DNA of 64,000 nt from the NCBI GenBank assembly GCA_020161265.1, contig JAIUOC010000010.1, forward strand, positions 186,001-250,000, written 5' to 3'. Positions 38,571 to 60,561 of this stretch are shown piece after piece (position 1 is the stretch's first letter; every line of letters starts with the position of its first letter). The notes below the pieces were generated by a model. The model made no database searches. It was not told the origin of the DNA and worked only from the letters and a program-made list of their open reading frames with translations. The DNA comes from Chloroflexota bacterium (GTDB lineage: Bacteria; Chloroflexota; Chloroflexia; Chloroflexales; Herpetosiphonaceae). The translations under genes were made by a program, and so were the position numbers.

Positions 38571-38599
38571 TTGCAATTTTATTAAGAGTGTGCTATACT
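38571..38599 (+). promoter_or_regulatory. Promoter of tRNA-Lys
   Basis: TTGCAA (38571-38576), 17 bp, TATACT (38594-38599), 10 bp before the tRNA 5' end. Confidence 0.8.
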
Positions 38600-40107
38600 C
38601 TCACGCGTTGGGCCGGTAGCTCAGTGGTAGAGCATCGGACTTTTAATCCGCTGGTCGTGGGTTCGATCCCCACCCGGCTCACCAAGCGGGATTGTTGCAA
38701 ACTTCCTACAAGTTCCAGAAATGGTTCTCGTGGTTGGTAGGCGACAATCCCTTTTTTTGTGCCCCAAATGGCTGCAATGAGTGATTGTAAGGCTACGCGC
38801 TTCTCGGCTAAGGCTCCCTTCTGCTTAAATGTCCAACTAATTGATTCTAATAAATCTAGGGCTTGCTCCATGTTAAAGGATGCAGCTGGTTTTTGGCGTG
38901 GTGCTTGGGCTTGAGCAAACAACGCTGATTTGCGCTGCTCATATTCATCAGCCCGGATGTGATCGTTGAGAAACATGCGCTTGAGTGCGGCAAGCTCGGC
39001 TTCAATGTTGGGTGCTTCGGGTACTGGTTGTTGGCGTGCAGCCCACTGTTGCTGAGCAACCTGAAGAATGTCGCGCTTCCAATCGCTGGGAAACGCCAAG
39101 GCATCGAGCACCGCAATCATATGCTGATCAAGCACATCGTTGCGCACCATGGCCATGGGGCATTGGTTGTAGCGGTGTTGACTGCACTCATAGTACACAA
39201 CGTTGGTTGTGCGTTTGTAGTGTTGCCACATGCGGCTGCCACATTGCTCACAATACAAAATTTCACTGAGCAGCCCACGGCCTTGGCTCACAGGAGTCCA
39301 GCCGCGTTTTTGGCCGCGCCGATCAAGCAAAACTTGTACCGCGTCCCATGTTTTTTTGTCAATCAGCGCTTCATGTTGGCCAGCATAGGTTTGGCCTTTG
39401 TAGCTCACCTTGCCAATATAGGCTTGGTTGCGTAGCATCGATGCAACGTTGTCTTTGGTGTAGGGAACATAGCGCCCTTGTTGCGTGTTCCAAACGCGTG
39501 CACCACGTTGATTCATGGCATCGGCGACGGTGCTGAAGCTATACAGGCCTGTGGCATAGAGGATAAACAGCATGCGCTGGTGCTCGGCATCGGCTGAAGG
39601 AACCAGCACCCCTTGCTCATTGCGTTGGTAGCCTGTTGGCACTGGGCCAGGTAATTTGCCTGATTCCGCAGCTGCACGGCGGGCACGTGCAACCCGTTCG
39701 CCTGTTAGTCGGCTATAGAGTTCGGCCCCAGCCCCCAACATCGTCAGATTGAAGCGGCCAGCAGCGGTATCCATCTCAATTGGCTCGGTAATGGAAATGA
39801 GCTGAATCCCCAGCGCGTGGAATTCATCAACTACCCGCAGCTGGAGCGAGGTGTTACGTGCGCAGCGGTCGAGCTTCCAAACTAACACAACATCAAAGCA
39901 CCGTGGTTTCCGAGCGGCATCTTCACGAAGCTGCATAAACGCGGGACGATCAGCATTGCGGCCACTCTTGCCAGCATCTTGATAGACCTGCACAACGTGC
40001 CAACCATGGCGTTGGGCATAGGCCTGACAATCACGCTCTTGGCTTGCAAGGCTGCTGTTTTCAGCTTGTTCACGGGTGGAAACCCGCGTATAGATAACGG
40101 CTCGCAT
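38593..40107 (-). CDS. Large serine recombinase (prophage integrase)
   Basis: 504 residues as read. Resolvase domain starts MRAVIYTRVSTREQA with the nucleophile Ser10, and LDRCARN carries catalytic Arg residues. A recombinase domain (PVPTGYQRNEQGVLVPS) and a zinc ribbon (LYCEQCGSRMW...YYECSQHRYNQCP) follow, then a coiled-coil region. It would integrate and excise the element. The last roughly 30 residues (from SRVGIEPTTSGLKV) are the reverse translation of tRNA-Lys and flank, so the native C-terminus probably differs in the excised phage. Last gene of the left operon. Confidence 0.93.
   Translation of the reverse strand: MRAVIYTRVSTREQAENSSLASQERDCQAYAQRHGWHVVQVYQDAGKSGRNADRPAFMQLREDAARKPRCFDVVLVWKLDRCARNTSLQLRVVDEFHALGIQLISITEPIEMDTAAGRFNLTMLGAGAELYSRLTGERVARARRAAAESGKLPGPVPTGYQRNEQGVLVPSADAEHQRMLFILYATGLYSFSTVADAMNQRGARVWNTQQGRYVPYTKDNVASMLRNQAYIGKVSYKGQTYAGQHEALIDKKTWDAVQVLLDRRGQKRGWTPVSQGRGLLSEILYCEQCGSRMWQHYKRTTNVVYYECSQHRYNQCPMAMVRNDVLDQHMIAVLDALAFPSDWKRDILQVAQQQWAARQQPVPEAPNIEAELAALKRMFLNDHIRADEYEQRKSALFAQAQAPRQKPAASFNMEQALDLLESISWTFKQKGALAEKRVALQSLIAAIWGTKKGIVAYQPREPFLELVGSLQQSRLVSRVGIEPTTSGLKVRCSTTELPAQRVRV
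38610..38684 (+). tRNA. tRNA-Lys(UUU)
   Basis: 75 nt including an encoded CCA. Acceptor GGGCCGG pairs with CCGGCTC; the anticodon loop CTTTTAA gives UUU; the T-arm GGGTTCGATCCCC is intact. The gene marks the left boundary of the prophage and remains complete after integration. The recombinase gene reads antisense across it. Confidence 0.97.
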
Positions 40108-45808: not shown

Positions 45809-46188
45809 CTGAGAGACGAAAACGAAGGTCTGTAGTAAGCTTTTGATAGTGTGTTTTGGGCAGGCCTACGTGATTTCCTGCCCGTTGATCGTGGTGCAAC
45901 ATTGGCAACGGTGCGGCGGTTTGCCGAGGTGGGGTCATCGCCCATAGCCTTGTGCCGTTGGAAGTTGCGATCCCGCGCTGGTTGCGCACGATATGCCACG
46001 ACTGCGTATTGAATTGTTAAGGTAGTCCTGCTTGTGAACATTGCCGCTGTTCCGCACAACAGCGGGTGAGAATTGATACATACCGAGTTGCGCCACGTTG
46101 GCGCTGGTGAGCAGGTAGGGCTGCTCAGGCCGTGCCGCTGACGCTTGCGGCGCTGCAATATGGCTTGCAGCCGATAGCCAAAATCTGA
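45809..46188. other. Stretch without a convincing gene
   Basis: 380 bp in the minus-strand early operon. One minus-strand frame without an ATG near its start reads as ...LTSANVAQLGMYQFSPAVVRNSGNVHKQ before a stop, which looks more protein-like than the others. It may be a decayed or late-starting gene. No start with a ribosome site was found. Confidence 0.4.
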
Positions 46189-50146: not shown

Positions 50147-50845
50147 ATGACCGAACTACCAAAGCAAGTAAAAATTCATGAATCTGGTAGACAATTGATG
50201 ACGATTATGAACCTTCTTTTAGAAGATGTCGATTACTGTTTCTTAGCTATTGATGATCTGAAGAAAAGAGGGTATTCATCAGAAGAGCTACAATTTTGGT
50301 ATCGGGCTGTAATACGATCTCTATTTGCATGGATTGAAGGGGTAATTTATCGTTTGAAACAATTTTCTATTGAATACGATGGAGTATTAAGTGAGAAATT
50401 AGATTCTAAACTCTATTCGTCATTACTTGATACTGAATACCAAATAAATGAAAAAGGAGAGATAGTTAAATCAGATAAGTTTATTCCATTGCCAAGAAAT
50501 CTAATTTTTGCATTTAAGATCTACGCCCATGTATATAATTGTCAATATAATGTTGAAACATCAACCCATCACTGGCGCAATTTTCGTGATGCCATAAAGA
50601 TACGAAATCGGATTACACATCCTAAAGTATCAGATGATATTACTATAACTGAAGATGAAGTCTTGCTCATAAAAGATGTTAGAAAATGGTTTAGTACTAT
50701 ATACCAAGAGCTTTATAATAAAACTCAGGCAGAAAATGATAGATTTATTGCAGAAAAAGAGAGAGAAGTTGAAGAACTAAAAAATAACATACTTGATTCT
50801 ATCAAGCAAAGAAATAATGGCCAAATTAGAAGAAAGGATACCTAA
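50147..50845 (+). CDS. HEPN-type protein adjacent to the CRISPR-like array
   Basis: 232 residues, very A/T-rich gene. The motif IKIRNRITHPKV contains R153-N-x-x-x-H158, the R-x4-H signature of HEPN ribonucleases and toxins, inside an all-helical fold (DVDYCFLAIDDLKKRGYSSEELQFWYRAVIRSLFAWIEG). A C-terminal coiled coil follows (FIAEKEREVEELKNNILDSI). No nucleotidyltransferase partner gene is present. It ends five bases before the first array unit on the same strand, so transcription probably continues into the array. HEPN assignment is by motif only. Confidence 0.6.
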   Translation: MTELPKQVKIHESGRQLMTIMNLLLEDVDYCFLAIDDLKKRGYSSEELQFWYRAVIRSLFAWIEGVIYRLKQFSIEYDGVLSEKLDSKLYSSLLDTEYQINEKGEIVKSDKFIPLPRNLIFAFKIYAHVYNCQYNVETSTHHWRNFRDAIKIRNRITHPKVSDDITITEDEVLLIKDVRKWFSTIYQELYNKTQAENDRFIAEKEREVEELKNNILDSIKQRNNGQIRRKDT

Positions 50846-50849
50846 AGCT

Positions 50850-51644
50850 ATCTTGTAAAAACAATCCTCGATAGGGGATTAAAACTGATCTTCGGGATGG
50901 TAGGGCGTGTAGTGTGTACTTCACATGCATTCGAACGATCTGAATCCTCGGAAAGGGATTAAAACACTTTGCATTCGCCGTTGATGTATCCGTGACAGCA
51001 AAATTCGAAAGACCTGAATCCTCTTTGGGGGATTAAAACGTCAAAATGATGTGCCGATGCGTGCTTGCCCGTTGGTCGGGACTCGAAAGACCTGAATCCT
51101 CGTCAGGGGATTAAAACTCAAAAGCGTTGTTGTATTTGTTGCCGTTGTATTCATTCGAACGACCTGAATCCTCGTTGGGGGATTAAAACCAAATAGGATG
51201 GAATTGATAGCCTGCGGGAACCTTGAAGATTCGAACGACCTGAATCCTCGTCAGGGGATTAAAGTGTCCAATCGTCAGTTGGCCGTACATCGTAGTGCAT
51301 ATAAACCCATTCAATTAGTCATAATCCTCGGCAGGGGATTACAACGTCCATGTTGGAAGCGCAGTCCATGTTGGTAACGGAGAATTTGAAAGACCATAAT
51401 CCTCGCCAGGGGATTAAAACACTGGGTTAATATCGCAGCGGCATGCGTAGTGGAATAGATTCGAATGGCCTTAATCCTCGTTAGGGGATTACAGCACGAT
51501 CGCGGCAACGTCAATGGTTAGACCAGCCCATTATGAGTTATCCTTAATCCCTTTGGGGGATTAAAACCCAAAGCCTTTAATTGGCTCTCGTTCATAGGCT
51601 CTCATGAATTCGAAGCACCTCAATCCTCGCGAGGGGACTGCAAG
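50850..51644 (+). CRISPR. Degenerate CRISPR-like array, 11 units, phage-borne
   Basis: Eleven 36-nt repeat units start at 50850, 50930, 51004, 51082, 51154, 51230, 51310, 51385, 51460, 51532 and 51609; spacers are 44, 38, 42, 36, 40, 44, 39, 39, 36 and 41 nt and unrelated to each other. The consensus is TTCGAACGACCTG, then AATCCTC, four variable bases, GGGGATTAAAAC. The stem AATCCTC/GGGGATT is kept while the loop differs between units (GATA, GGAA, TTTG, GTCA, GTTG, GGCA, GCCA, GTTA, GCGA). The 3' end ATTAAAAC resembles the crRNA 5' handle of type I/III repeats, which sets the plus strand as transcribed. The first and last units are the most altered. No cas gene is within the window. Confidence 0.8.
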
Positions 51645-51667
51645 CACCACCCAGTTGGGTGGTGCTT
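51642..51667 (+). terminator. Intrinsic terminator at the end of the array
   Basis: AAGCACCACCC, loop AGTT, GGGTGGTGCTT, then TTGTTT. It begins inside the last array unit and ends the HEPN-array transcript. Confidence 0.88.
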
Positions 51668-51876
51668 TTGTTTAAGCACATATGTTTGTCTTGTAGCGTT
51701 CGTTAGGAGGTGATAGAATAGCGCACGGTTTCTGAATCCTACTCACTACCTATGCCACCCCCATTTTCTTAAAAGGAGTGCTTACACGACATCGCGGCCT
51801 TGAAATACAACTAAGTTCAGTCCTTTGGGTTGATGTCAATCCCCTCTCCCTCATGATATACTCCAAGGAGGTTTCT

Positions 51877-54925: not shown

Positions 54926-55378
54926 ATGGCAAAACCGGAACAAACCGGAACACCTAAAAAAAGGCGCGTGCTTAAGTGGGAGCAAGCCTTCATTACAGCA
55001 CTTGCACGTCAAGGAGTTGTTTCATATGCCTGTCAAGCGGCAGGTATTGGGCGGACAACTGTTTATCGCCATCGTGAACAATATCAAGATTTTGCTACAG
55101 CTTGGGATGAAGCATTGGAAGTAGCAGCTGATGCACTGGAGCTTGAGGCTCGGCGACGTGCTCATGATGGGGTTGAAGAACCTGTGTTTGGTCGGGTTGG
55201 AAAAGATAGTGATGGTGAGGTGGGCCGCATTCGCAAATACTCTGACACGCTCTTGATGTTTTTGTTGAAGGCGGCTCGGCCCGCCAAATTTCGTGAGCGC
55301 GTGGATATGAATCACAGTGGTGGCGTGGATTATAAGATTTACGAGAAAACCCATGAGTTTGACCCTGAATCAGCCTAA
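54926..55378 (+). CDS. terS: Terminase small subunit
   Basis: 150 residues. WEQAFITALARQGVVSYACQAAGIGRTTVYRHREQYQDFATAWDEA is a helix-turn-helix for recognition of the packaging site, followed by oligomerisation helices (LELEARRRAHDG) and RKYSDTLLMFLLKAARPAKFRERV, a common terS C-terminal motif. Upstream of the large subunit. Confidence 0.88.
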   Translation: MAKPEQTGTPKKRRVLKWEQAFITALARQGVVSYACQAAGIGRTTVYRHREQYQDFATAWDEALEVAADALELEARRRAHDGVEEPVFGRVGKDSDGEVGRIRKYSDTLLMFLLKAARPAKFRERVDMNHSGGVDYKIYEKTHEFDPESA

Positions 55379-56642
55379 ATCGATCACAGAACAACGCCTG
55401 TATGCCGCTCGTGGTGGAGCTGCTTTGATGTGGGCGTGCCGTGATCGCGAGATTCTGATGGATGGCCCAGCGGGAACTGGCAAAACCCGGGCCATTCTGG
55501 AGAAAGCCCACTTCTGTTTGATGAAGTATGCGGGCTGTCGCGTCTTGGCCGTTCGCAAAACCCGCGCATCGATGACTGAAAGCGTCCTTGTCACCTATGA
55601 AGAAAAGGTGCTCCCAACCACTAGCCCGATCAAGGCGGGACAAAAGCGATCACACCGCCAAAGCTATGACTACCCGAATGGCTCAACTTTTGTCATTGGG
55701 GGGATGGATAACCCTGATCGCATTATGAGTACCGAGTTTGATCTCATTGTGTGCTTCGAATGGACGGAAGGCACTGAAGATGATCATGAAAAACTCACTA
55801 CTCGGTTGCGTAACGGCGTAATGCCCTATCAACAATTAATTGCTGACTGCAACCCTAGTTATCCTTCGCACTGGCTGAACCAACGCGCCTTACGCAGCAC
55901 GATTACCCGTATTCTCTCGCGTCATGAAGATAATCCAACGGTGACCCCTGCCTACTTGGCAACCCTTGATGCCCTTACTGGAGCACGCAAACTTCGGTTG
56001 CGCAATGGCATTTGGGCAGCACAAGAGGGCATGGTCTATGACGAATGGGATGCTCAAATCCATCTGCTTAGCCCGTTTCCGATTCCAAGCGACTGGGCAC
56101 GCTTTCGAAGCTTTGATTTCGGCTTCACCAATCCCTTCGTTTGTCAGTGGTGGGCGATCGACAACGATGGGCGCATGTATTTGTATCGTGAATGGTATAT
56201 GAGCGGCATGGTGGTACAAGAGCATGCAAAGAAGGTTTTAGCCCTCAGTGCTCAAGAGCGCTTCTTTGGCGATGTTGCTGATCCCGAAGATGCTGATGGC
56301 CGTGCCACGCTGGCCCAGCATCGGATCGCAACCGCCGCCGCAACCAAGACGATTAAGCCTGGGATTGAGGCGGTCAAAGAACGCCTGAAGGTGCAACCCG
56401 ATGGCAAGCCACGCCTTTTTATGCTGCGTGATGCCCTCGTGGAGCGTGATGATTCCATGGTGCAAAAGAAGTTGCCATGGTGTACCGAGCAAGAGATCGA
56501 AGGCTATATTTGGGCCAAAGGCAGTGATGGTAAGAATGCTAAAGAAGAGCCAATCAAGGCCAATGATCACGGCATGGATGCCTTACGTTATGCGGTGATG
56601 TTTGCCAATCAAGGCCGCCGTGGTGGAGGGATCTTCCGATGA
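55353..56642 (+). CDS. terL: Terminase large subunit
   Basis: 429 residues from ATG 55353, overlapping terS by 26 bases. ILMDGPAGTGKTRAILEKAH is the Walker A, FDLIVCFEWTEGTED the Walker B region, and the C-terminal RNase H-like nuclease has SFDFGFTNPFVCQWW, GDVADPEDADG and NDHGMDALRYAVMF with the conserved acidic residues. Packages DNA into the prohead. Confidence 0.95.
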   Translation: MSLTLNQPKSITEQRLYAARGGAALMWACRDREILMDGPAGTGKTRAILEKAHFCLMKYAGCRVLAVRKTRASMTESVLVTYEEKVLPTTSPIKAGQKRSHRQSYDYPNGSTFVIGGMDNPDRIMSTEFDLIVCFEWTEGTEDDHEKLTTRLRNGVMPYQQLIADCNPSYPSHWLNQRALRSTITRILSRHEDNPTVTPAYLATLDALTGARKLRLRNGIWAAQEGMVYDEWDAQIHLLSPFPIPSDWARFRSFDFGFTNPFVCQWWAIDNDGRMYLYREWYMSGMVVQEHAKKVLALSAQERFFGDVADPEDADGRATLAQHRIATAAATKTIKPGIEAVKERLKVQPDGKPRLFMLRDALVERDDSMVQKKLPWCTEQEIEGYIWAKGSDGKNAKEEPIKANDHGMDALRYAVMFANQGRRGGGIFR

Positions 56643-58576
56643 AGCCTTTCACGTGGATGCGCTATGCCGTGGCTCGGTGGGCCTTCAAAGCCGCCAATAT
56701 TGCCATTGTACCGCCGTGGGTACGCGAAAGCATTCTTACGCCTGCCTTCCATTCCCTCACTCGTGAGGGCTATCAAAAAAATGCGGCCTTCTTAGCCTGT
56801 ATCGCCACGCTCAATTTTGGGATTAGCGAAGCGCCTCTGATGGTGTATCAGGATGAACGGCCCTTACCCAATCACCCAACCCGAAAGTTGCTCCGCCGTC
56901 CTAACCCGATTATGAGCGGGAGTGAGTTGAAGGTGATGGCGATGACCTATATGGGCATTGGCGGCAATGCCTATCTGCATAAAGTGCGCAATAGCGCGGG
57001 GCGGGTTATTCAGCTGTGGCCGTATCACGCGGGGCAATTTAGCCCTGTGCCAGGTGGGCCTTCATGGGTTCAGGGTTATACCTATGATGATGGCTCCGGC
57101 ACCTTAACTCCGGTTGCGGCTGCTGATGTTATCCATATTCAATGGCCTACGCCTGACCCAACCCAGCCATGGATGGCGATGCCGCCGCTACGGGCCGCTG
57201 CGGTAGAAGTCGATGCCGATAACGAAGCCAGTCGCTATCTCTCAACCTTGCTGCAAAACGATGCTGTGCCGCGCACGATCATTCACGAAAGCGATCAGCG
57301 CTTTATGAATGATGATGAAGTCCGGCGGGCAAAAGAGCAATTTGAAGATCGCTATGGCGGCACTAAACGCGGTGGTGCTTTGATTCTTGAAGCAGGTGCA
57401 AAAATTTCACGCCTGAGCTTGAATCTTGAAGAACTGGCTTTTGAAGCCATGCACAACATTCCTGAGGCACGGATCGCAGCAGTGATGCGCGTGCCGCCCA
57501 TCGTGGCAGGGTTAAATGTGGGCTTGAACCGATCAACCTTCAGCAATTACGGTGAGGCACGCCAAGCCTTCACCCGCGATACCTTGGTTCCGCTTTGGAA
57601 TATCATCGCCGATGCGCTCGACGCTGACCCTGATTTGAATAGTGATGGGTTGACTATCAAGCACGACCTCAGCAATGTAGCATCATTACAAGAGGATCAA
57701 AATGGGCGCTGGGCACGAGTGATTAGCGGCTATACCGCTGGCCTGATGGAAGAAACAACCGCCCAAGATCTCTTGGGGTTGCCGCGCTATCAGGCACCAA
57801 TGCCAGCACCACCACCAGCGCCAGCCCAACCCAAAGCCTTCAATCCTGAGGCCAAGAGCACACGCGGCATTGGCCGATCGTTGCAACGGATTCGCCACAC
57901 CACGGCGCGATCGATGGAACACGCCCTTGATAGCTACTTTACTGACCTTGGAAATCGGGTGATTGCCCGTGCGCAAAAAGCATGGCTTCCAGCTCATGAG
58001 CAAAAGGCACTTCCACTGGTTGAAGACCTGTTGACCGATAGCGATCTGCGGGTACTGAGTCAATTAGTTGGGGATTGGTACATCGAGATTGTGCGCCTGA
58101 GTTGGGAAACGTGGAATCTGGCCTTAGGAACGGAGATCGTCTTCGGGTTAGAAAATCCTGCGGTGGTTGAAGCGCTTGCCATTGCCGGAACCAATATCAC
58201 CAGTATTCACGAAACGACGCTTGCTGCGGTGCAGGCCGTGTTGCGCTATGGGGCGGAGCAGGGATGGACGATTGATGATTTGGTGCGCGGCGATGATAGC
58301 CAAGCAGGGCTGCAAACGATCGTGACTGAAACCTATAAAAACCGTGCGCGGGCGATCGCCCGAACCGAATTAGGAACGGCGCAAAATGTCGCGTCGATCA
58401 GTCGCTATGAGCAATCAGGCGTGGCACAGGTGCGGGTATTGGATGGCAACGGCCCGAACAGCTGCCAAGCCTGTACTGATCTCAATAATTCGCTTCAGTC
58501 ATTGGCTTGGGCGCGAGCGAATCCGCTTGGTCACCCAAATTGTATTCGGGCGTTTGCTCCGGTTATTGAGGATTGA
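56639..58576 (+). CDS. Portal protein fused to MuF-like domain
   Basis: 645 residues, longer than usual HK97 portals (about 400-430). The first 400 residues have portal features (PTRKLLRRPNPIMSGSELKVMAMTYMGIGGNAYLHKVRN, PEARIAAVMRVPPIVAGLNVG, ...QDLLGLPRYQAPMP). A Pro-rich linker then leads to a C-terminal part ending in RAIARTELGTAQNVASISRYEQSG and CTDLNNSLQ, GHPNCIRAFAP, the MuF minor-head motif. A natural portal-MuF fusion, or adjoining genes that became one frame. Confidence 0.88.
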   Translation: MKPFTWMRYAVARWAFKAANIAIVPPWVRESILTPAFHSLTREGYQKNAAFLACIATLNFGISEAPLMVYQDERPLPNHPTRKLLRRPNPIMSGSELKVMAMTYMGIGGNAYLHKVRNSAGRVIQLWPYHAGQFSPVPGGPSWVQGYTYDDGSGTLTPVAAADVIHIQWPTPDPTQPWMAMPPLRAAAVEVDADNEASRYLSTLLQNDAVPRTIIHESDQRFMNDDEVRRAKEQFEDRYGGTKRGGALILEAGAKISRLSLNLEELAFEAMHNIPEARIAAVMRVPPIVAGLNVGLNRSTFSNYGEARQAFTRDTLVPLWNIIADALDADPDLNSDGLTIKHDLSNVASLQEDQNGRWARVISGYTAGLMEETTAQDLLGLPRYQAPMPAPPPAPAQPKAFNPEAKSTRGIGRSLQRIRHTTARSMEHALDSYFTDLGNRVIARAQKAWLPAHEQKALPLVEDLLTDSDLRVLSQLVGDWYIEIVRLSWETWNLALGTEIVFGLENPAVVEALAIAGTNITSIHETTLAAVQAVLRYGAEQGWTIDDLVRGDDSQAGLQTIVTETYKNRARAIARTELGTAQNVASISRYEQSGVAQVRVLDGNGPNSCQACTDLNNSLQSLAWARANPLGHPNCIRAFAPVIED

Positions 58577-58579
58577 GCT

Positions 58580-59329
58580 ATGTCAGCACTGGAATATAAA
58601 GTTACTCCCGCCGAATTCAAGGCGAATACCAACATACCAGGCCAATACGAAGGCTATTTCTCGATATTCGGGAATATCGATGATGGGCTTGATGTGATTG
58701 AAGCGGGGGCATTCACTAAAACCTTGCAGGAACGCGCCCGCCGGATAAAGGTTTTCATGGCCCACGACTGGTCAAAGCTGCTTGGGCCACCACCAGACGT
58801 AATCCACGAGGATTCACGCGGTCTCTATGCCAAAGGGCGATTGACCTTAGGTAGCTTTTGGGGCAAAGAGGCATGGGAGTTGATGGCTGATGGTGCTCTG
58901 ACTGAAGGTTCGATCGGCTTCTTTAGCATTCCCGATAAAACCGAGTATCGCGATAACGGGGTGCGGGTACTGCGGGAAGTCAAGCTTTATGAAATTTCGC
59001 CTGTGCCGCTGGGCATGAACCCGTTGACTGATGTTCAGGCGATCAAAAGCTTGTATGGGCGTGATACGAATGCCTTTTTAAACGCCCTTGGGGCTTTCCT
59101 GCATGAAATGAAAGCCGGATCACGCCACTCCAAGGCCGATACTGAAATGCTGAATACGATTCATCGGTATGTGGTGGATTTGGGGGCAACCACCTGCAAA
59201 GGTGTTGTAACCGCTGATGAAGAACCCTCTGCTGATGATCCCAAAGCCGCGCCGAGCCGAGCCGCTGATGCACTCACTCTGCGCCTTCGTCTGCAAGCCG
59301 CTGAATTGGCACTTGCAAAGCGCGTATAG
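58580..59329 (+). CDS. Prohead maturation protease (HK97 family)
   Basis: 249 residues. KVFMAHDWSKLLG carries the catalytic His and GALTEGSIGFFSIPD the Ser of the U35 family; EGYFSIFGNIDDGLDVIEAGAF is the usual start. It cleaves the capsid scaffold domain. Three bases after the portal gene; 11 bp before the capsid gene. Confidence 0.93.
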   Translation: MSALEYKVTPAEFKANTNIPGQYEGYFSIFGNIDDGLDVIEAGAFTKTLQERARRIKVFMAHDWSKLLGPPPDVIHEDSRGLYAKGRLTLGSFWGKEAWELMADGALTEGSIGFFSIPDKTEYRDNGVRVLREVKLYEISPVPLGMNPLTDVQAIKSLYGRDTNAFLNALGAFLHEMKAGSRHSKADTEMLNTIHRYVVDLGATTCKGVVTADEEPSADDPKAAPSRAADALTLRLRLQAAELALAKRV

Positions 59330-59340
59330 GAGTTTCTGGA

Positions 59341-60561
59341 ATGAAAGAAAAGATCAAACGGCTCTACGATGAAGCCAATCGGGCACATACGGCTGCCAAG
59401 GCAATTCTTGATGAATATGCCAGCACTGATATGTCTGAAGAAAAGCGCGTGCAGGTTGATGCCTTCCTTGATGAAGTTGATCAGAAGAGTGCTGAAGCCA
59501 AGCGGCTGGAACGAGCGATCGAGCAAGAGCGTGAACTCAATGCCCCACAAAACGCCTTAGGCAATGGTGGGCTGCCCGATGGCAAGCAAACTCGTGAGCC
59601 AGCCATGGAAGAAAAAGCCTTCCAACGCTATTTGCGCAGCGGCTCACGCGGCTTAACCGAGCAGGAACGTAAGGCCTTACGGGCCGATGATGACGAAGCT
59701 GGTGGGTATTTGGTCGCTCCGGTGACCTTCTCGCAAGCCTTGCTGAAATTTGTTGATGATGAAGTCTTCATTCGCCAGTTGGCCACGGTTGAACAATTAA
59801 CCCAAAGCGAAAGCTTAGGGATTATCAGCCTTGATGAAGATTTTGAAGATGCCGATTGGACAAGCGAACTGGCAACGGGCAATGAAAGCACCGTCAAGCC
59901 GTTTGGGAAGCGGGCATTGAAACCGCATCCGTTGGCCAAACGCATCAAAATCAGTAATACCCTATTGCGCAAATCCATGCGTCCTGTTGAAACGCTGGTG
60001 CAACAACGGATTGGCTATAAGTTTGGGGTCACGCTTGAAAAAGGCTATCTGTTGGGTGATGGCGCACAAAAGCCACTCGGTTTATTTGTTCCTTCAACCC
60101 AAGGCATTTCAACCAGTCGTGATGTTGCCTATACCGTCACCAGTGATAAAACCAAGGCCGATTCGCTGATCGATGCCAAATACAAGCTCAAGTCTCAATA
60201 CCAAAGTAGCCCAACCACCCGCTGGATTTTCCATCGGGATTTTGTCAAAGGGTTACGCAAGCTGCGTGATGCCAACGAGCAATTCTTGTGGCAGCCTGGG
60301 CTACAAGCAGGCCAGCCAGATCGCATCCTTGATGTGCCATTCGTGATGAGTGAGTTTGCGCCGAATACCTTTTCAGCGACCAATTATGTGGGCTTGATTG
60401 GGGATATTCGGTTCTATTGGATTGTGGATTCATTGCAACTGCAAATCCAAACCCTGAATGAGCTGTACGCAGAAACCAATCAGCGCGGGTATATCGCCCG
60501 CTATGAAGGTGATGGTGCGCCGATGTTGGAAGAAGCCTTTGTACGGTTGCAGCATTCCTAA
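59341..60561 (+). CDS. Major capsid protein (HK97 fold)
   Basis: 406 residues. The N-terminal 65 residues are a charged coiled-coil delta scaffold domain removed at maturation. DDDEAGGYLVAPVTFSQALLKFVDDEVFIRQLATV, then KISNTLLRKSMRPVETLVQQRIGYKFGVTLEKGYLLGDG and GDIRFYWIVDSLQLQIQ follow the HK97 capsid pattern. Forms the icosahedral shell. Confidence 0.94.
   Translation: MKEKIKRLYDEANRAHTAAKAILDEYASTDMSEEKRVQVDAFLDEVDQKSAEAKRLERAIEQERELNAPQNALGNGGLPDGKQTREPAMEEKAFQRYLRSGSRGLTEQERKALRADDDEAGGYLVAPVTFSQALLKFVDDEVFIRQLATVEQLTQSESLGIISLDEDFEDADWTSELATGNESTVKPFGKRALKPHPLAKRIKISNTLLRKSMRPVETLVQQRIGYKFGVTLEKGYLLGDGAQKPLGLFVPSTQGISTSRDVAYTVTSDKTKADSLIDAKYKLKSQYQSSPTTRWIFHRDFVKGLRKLRDANEQFLWQPGLQAGQPDRILDVPFVMSEFAPNTFSATNYVGLIGDIRFYWIVDSLQLQIQTLNELYAETNQRGYIARYEGDGAPMLEEAFVRLQHS

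Follow-up and report, generated by a model that had tools for sequence, protein, structure and literature searches.

A repeat array inside a Herpetosiphon prophage

A prophage of about 38 kb, which sits at tRNA-Lys in a Herpetosiphon genome whose named relatives are H. aurantiacus, H. geysericola, H. giganteus and H. llansteffanensis, carries a series of short hairpins whose loops differ from one unit to the next. This raises the question of whether the locus is a CRISPR array, why its repeats are so unlike one another, and what use a phage could make of it.

As shown in Table 1, the array consists of 11 units of 37 nt on the + strand, at 50849-51644 of the window (the whole 64,000-nt stretch of DNA that was analysed). 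The spacers are, in order, 43, 37, 41, 35, 39, 43, 38, 38, 35 and 40 nt long. A sequence-only reading of this DNA had counted the 11 units correctly and had given 36 nt for the units and 36-44 nt for the spacers, where we measured 37 nt and 35-43 nt. The conserved stem that it described, AATCCTC/GGGGATT, is exact in 8 of the 11 units, the exceptions being units 2 (AGGGATT), 10 (AATCCC) and 11 (GGGGACT). Its conserved AAAAC end is present in seven units and altered in units 6 (AAAGT), 7 (ACAAC), 9 (ACAGC) and 11 (GCAAG). The change of loop from unit to unit was seen as it had stated, and the prophage setting was confirmed by a serine integrase, tRNA-Lys, packaging and head genes, and an attachment-site repeat at 38669 and 76533. 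The terminator that follows the last unit, and the presence of this hairpin in the host's own arrays, had escaped that reading. All 11 of the 37-mers are distinct. RNA folding gave the 7-bp hairpin or a near form in most units, the weakest being units 2 and 11. With the Rfam model CRISPR-DR30 (gathering score 50), unit 3 reached 56.9 bits, and most of the remaining units matched below the gathering score.

Table 1. Positions in the window of the array, its flanking elements and prophage landmarks.
Feature	Position	Strand	Remarks
Serine integrase	38593..40107	-	95% identical to integrases of two targeted prophages
Attachment core, 16 nt	38669..38684	+	3' end of tRNA-Lys; second copy at 76533, beyond the window
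232-aa gene	50147..50845	+	no assigned function; ends 4 nt 5' of unit 1
Repeat unit 1	50849..50885	+	loop GATA; 5' half degenerate; folds to 7-bp hairpin
Repeat unit 2	50929..50965	+	loop GGAA; closing C-G broken
Repeat unit 3	51003..51039	+	loop TTTG; one mismatch each to host C1 repeat and H. aurantiacus prophage repeat
Repeat unit 4	51081..51117	+	loop GTCA
Repeat unit 5	51153..51189	+	loop GTTG
Spacer 5	51190..51228	+	39 nt; 36-37/39 nt match to rival-prophage gene
Repeat unit 6	51229..51265	+	loop GTCA
Repeat unit 7	51309..51345	+	loop GGCA
Repeat unit 8	51384..51420	+	loop GCCA
Repeat unit 9	51459..51495	+	loop GTTA
Repeat unit 10	51531..51567	+	shortened; loop (TTTG); hairpin retained via AATCCC/GGGATT
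Repeat unit 11	51608..51644	+	terminal; loop GCGA; 3' half degenerate
Intrinsic terminator	about 51642..51671	+	strong; starts at end of last unit
Packaging and head genes	54926..60561	+	terminase small/large, portal, protease, capsid

The feature is a real CRISPR array, far beyond chance. Its repeats fall within the usual range of about 23-47 nt and alternate with unique spacers of similar length, which match those of the host arrays (38.5 vs 38.8), and one spacer matches three rival prophages, the other nine being without a match. It departs from a canonical array in two respects: the repeats are far from near-identical, and no conserved-leader sequence lies directly 5' of the first repeat.

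The prophage also contains replication genes, a repressor and lysis genes. Neither Cas1 nor Cas6 was found within it, so the array is cas-less and prophage-borne. Among the genes flanking the array, nothing convincing was found for defence families. Promoter prediction for the array gave nothing above chance (4 found vs 4.0 expected), and from its position the array may be transcribed together with the upstream 232-aa gene. The product of this gene had no homologues among viral contigs and no family match in Pfam, PHROGs or PADLOC; we take its RNRITHP stretch to resemble the Rx4-6H motif of HEPN proteins. A portal search found no second prophage of the same kind in the genome.

Host arrays with the same hairpin

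About 200 hairpins of the same type are present in arrays of the same genome, and comparison with these repeats gave the same AATCCTC/GGGGATT. The C1 array has 26 units with loop TTTG and the C5 array 170 units with loop GGAA, both almost uniform. The C5 array adjoins a complete type III-A locus encoding Cas10, Csm2, Csm3, Csm4, Csm5, two Csm6-like proteins, Cas6 and Cas1, followed by a Cas2-like reading frame (labelled by eye). The Cas10 is of 742 aa, with HD and GGDD. The host thus encodes machinery compatible with the prophage units, a type III-A Csm complex with Cas6, as the suggestion that a host Cas complex may use them required. The window array would be assigned to type III-A on the common hairpin, and its sister array on the common leader. 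A second host CRISPR system, at about 605-612 kb of C1, has a repeat unrelated to that of the window array.

Related prophage arrays and loss of the leader

Chromosomal arrays of the genus differ by 0-3 positions per 37 nt and each has its own tetraloop; uniform arrays in other species have loops GAGA, GTCA, GTGA, TGGC and TCTG. Variation of the loop between arrays is therefore normal in this genus, and variation within an array is abnormal. The mean difference per 37 nt is 10.4 in the window array and 5.8 in the array of an H. geysericola prophage.

In three prophages, those of H. aurantiacus, H. geysericola and the window, the array sits after the repressor genes. The H. geysericola prophage is related to the window phage (integrase 97% identical, same replication genes) and has 36 units at the corresponding place, 30 of them distinct among 35 full-length ones. 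The more distant H. aurantiacus prophage has at the corresponding locus an array with loop TCTG, uniform except near the far end and interrupted by an insertion that contains a transposase-like reading frame. The terminator of the window array has homologues elsewhere in the genus only after these two prophage arrays. Beside the insertion in the H. aurantiacus array, one spacer is doubled in neighbouring units (C1:1605430-1605542), which points to a duplication mediated by the repeats or linked to the insertion.

The host arrays on C1 and C5 have a conserved leader, GGACCGCGCAAACC...TTGCAAAGCC...GGTAT. The full leader precedes the uniform H. aurantiacus prophage array, its last 28 nt are left before the diverged H. 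geysericola array, and none of it is left in the window, where every unit is distinct. Repeat uniformity thus falls with leader loss, in a series of only three prophage arrays.

The sequence-only reading had allowed for another kind of small-RNA array altogether. This is unneeded: at the corresponding locus the H. aurantiacus prophage carries a regular CRISPR array, uniform and headed by the standard leader; a unit of the H. geysericola phage has exactly the sequence of the host C1 repeat; and spacers match rival phages.

The repeat of the window array was found among viral contigs in only two, both of Herpetosiphon, and nearly all matches across 84,980 genomes were in Herpetosiphon, the others being single stray matches. 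The array had no match among annotated phages.

The loops themselves allow another origin, in which the guides are functional and the units were recombined in from the arrays of many hosts. The loops TTTG, GGAA, GTCA, GGCA and GTGA of the phage arrays recur in the chromosomal arrays of various strains, and the unit identical to the C1 repeat fits such capture. However, most other phage units differ from the sampled host repeats by 3-9 mismatches, and no spacer is common to the phage arrays and 785 other spacers. Neighbouring units are also alike: adjacent units of the H. geysericola array are closer to one another than they are after shuffling of their order (p = 0.0006), as expected from copying of a neighbour and later drift, and in the window array this resemblance is weak (p = 0.045). 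We consider this origin unlikely.

Diverged units also occur outside any recognised prophage. In the H. aurantiacus chromosome, orphan units at C1:1529679-1529870, roughly 3 kb ahead of a uniform array with loop TGGC, have loops GTTG, TCGC and TTGC and an altered stem or handle.

The stem is constrained

Departures from consensus were counted in 45 units. The stem is constrained, with 7/630 departures compared with 170/810 in the 5' part and loop (Fisher p = 7e-37), and the AAAAC tail (handle) is intermediate, with 15/225 (stem vs tail, p = 4e-5); the units are related and the p-values overstate their independence, but the contrast itself is large. In the window alone the counts are 2/140 for the stem and 33/140 for the 5' part (p = 5e-9). 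The view that constraint centres on the hairpin stem was thus upheld.

The further statement that selection is on RNA structure and not on sequence was not supported: the stem is kept as sequence. All seven stem changes are transitions, and five of the seven keep a pair; 8 of the 14 possible transitions would do so, and these five are therefore not evidence of compensation. Stem covariation was dropped as an argument, the pair count being not beyond that of shuffles. What the counts support is constraint on a fixed stem.

These counts bear on the idea that the array is a relict, a captured piece decaying without function. The missing leader, the degenerate first and last units, the AAAAC tail altered in 4 of the 11 units and a promoter prediction at chance level are what a relict would have, and the H. 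aurantiacus orphan units at 1529.7 kb are similarly diverged. Random decay of copies should strike the stem as often as the other parts, and the stem is changed far less. Recent capture of units with host-conserved stems could mimic part of this pattern, but drift has gone further in the handle than in the stem. The terminator and the spacer lengths are intact, a version with 36 units exists in the homologous phage, and one spacer is directed at rivals. We regard a relict as quite improbable.

Spacers against rival phages

Spacer 5 matches, over its 39 nt (E down to 8e-15), a 136-aa gene that follows immediately on the major capsid gene in three prophages, found in H. geysericola, H. giganteus and H. 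llansteffanensis; given 2-3 mismatches to these, the true target may be another phage. The H. geysericola prophage in question is a separate contig of 46.6 kb. The H. giganteus and H. llansteffanensis prophages have integrases 95% identical to that of the window phage and use the same tRNA-Lys site (95.6% over 160 nt), and are thus direct competitors for it. Targets are known for 1 of the 10 window spacers.

A spacer of the H. geysericola phage array matches an Erf-like annealing-protein gene of an H. giganteus prophage (28/31 nt, E 3e-5), which was found by a local search of prophage sequences. In nine genomes searched at E<=0.1, the spacers of that array matched only themselves, plus one 20-nt chance-level match. 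The two phage spacers for which a target was found run antisense to the gene concerned, and host spacers of the genus are mixed in orientation. Shuffled phage spacers gave no matches, and spacer 5 had no second match in its own genome.

Chromosomal spacers of H. geysericola were also seen to match phages. One matches the window prophage at 46111-46137 (27/27 nt), and hosts thus also acquire immunity to this phage family. Others match the 46.6 kb phage contig of H. geysericola itself (C24), one of them antisense over 34/35 nt, an apparent case of tolerated self-targeting.

Phages also encode repeat mimics that inhibit host Cas complexes (Racr; PMC10651486), and the units could be decoys that occupy host Cas6 and Csm proteins. 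Like Racr, they are phage-encoded repeat hairpins that host Cas6 would be expected to recognise, and the stem, which a decoy would need, is the conserved part. However, the known mimics are solitary inhibitory repeats, whereas the arrays here are long (11 and 36 units), their spacers are of ordinary length and have targets in rival phages, and a decoy has no need of targets. A decoy function seems to us highly improbable.

Proposed function and history of the array

We propose, with a probability of about 0.7, that the array is a cas-less list of guides by which the prophage excludes superinfecting phages through host Cas6 and Csm, and that it was frozen after loss of its leader. The elements of this proposal that were directly observed here are the array, the prophage, the host III-A genes, the homologous arrays, the leader series, the stem constraint and the rival target. 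Transcription of the array would run along the + strand and stop at the terminator (51642), and host Cas6 would cut each hairpin to give crRNAs with a 5' AUUAAAAC-type handle. Loaded with these guides, the type III-A Csm complexes of the host would attack transcripts and DNA of rival phages. The lysogen would thereby be immune to rivals, including phages competing for the same tRNA-Lys attachment site.

The ancestor at the phage locus was probably an ordinary leader-bearing array. Once the leader was lost, no new spacers would be gained, and the repeats, no longer renewed from one template by spacer acquisition, would drift. Such drift would spare the stem needed by Cas6 and, less strictly, the 8-nt handle. 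We infer that drift after leader loss is the best account of the repeat diversity and that Cas6 recognition holds the stem. It is doubtful that the diversity was itself selected, with unlike repeats blocking recombinational collapse and allowing processing in hosts with other loops while the constant stem keeps Cas6 recognition. Were this so, phage-carried CRISPR memory would here have a stabilised form that serves in several hosts.

Comparison with known phage-borne arrays

Like the window array, several arrays in Clostridioides difficile prophages have host-like repeats and spacers against related phages, according to the part of PMC6079278 consulted (citing Hargreaves 2014, Boudry 2015). 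They give the most strongly expressed crRNAs, and exclusion of competitors was proposed in the same text. The host system there is of type I-B and the arrays are host-similar; that part of the text reports no divergence unit by unit and no leader loss.

Like the window array, the mini-CRISPR arrays of the Saccharolobus portogloboviruses SPV1 and SPV2, which act in heterotypic superinfection exclusion (PMC6858448; review PMC11656645), are without cas genes, have different spacers at the same locus in related viruses and target related viruses. They have 1-2 spacers, a leader and host-identical repeats, whereas the window and H. geysericola arrays have 10 and 35 spacers, diverged repeats and an absent or reduced leader. 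A 2024 review describes viral mini-arrays as having one or two spacers and host-identical repeats (PMC11656645). Neither description holds for the arrays of the window and of H. geysericola.

The array of cyanophage N-1 is transcribed in infection, and competitor exclusion was proposed for it (PMC4916379). It resembles the window array in lacking cas genes and in its host-like repeats, but has five repeats of type I-D-like sequence, a leader and no known targets. Among titles on Herpetosiphon and CRISPR, none concerned prophage arrays. Prophage arrays are known, and long ones with diverged repeats appear to be new.

One phage locus here offers a natural series, with a uniform array behind its leader at one end and a diverged array that has no leader at the other. 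The series amounts to a mutational scan, made by nature, of the needs of a type III repeat, in which the hairpin stem is kept and the loop and 5' half are free. It also ties phage-carried guides to a concrete rivalry, the contest among phages for a single tRNA-Lys attachment site. Programs that recognise arrays by near-identical repeats could miss such cases, and phage-borne guide arrays may therefore be under-counted.

A stand-alone Cas6 gene

The host also has a Cas6 gene at C2:501263-502219, for which no cas neighbour was recognised within 10 kb, and Cas6 matches of similar score without a Cas1 neighbour occur in the other Herpetosiphon genomes. The stand-alone Cas6 could serve cas-less arrays as an additional processing enzyme.
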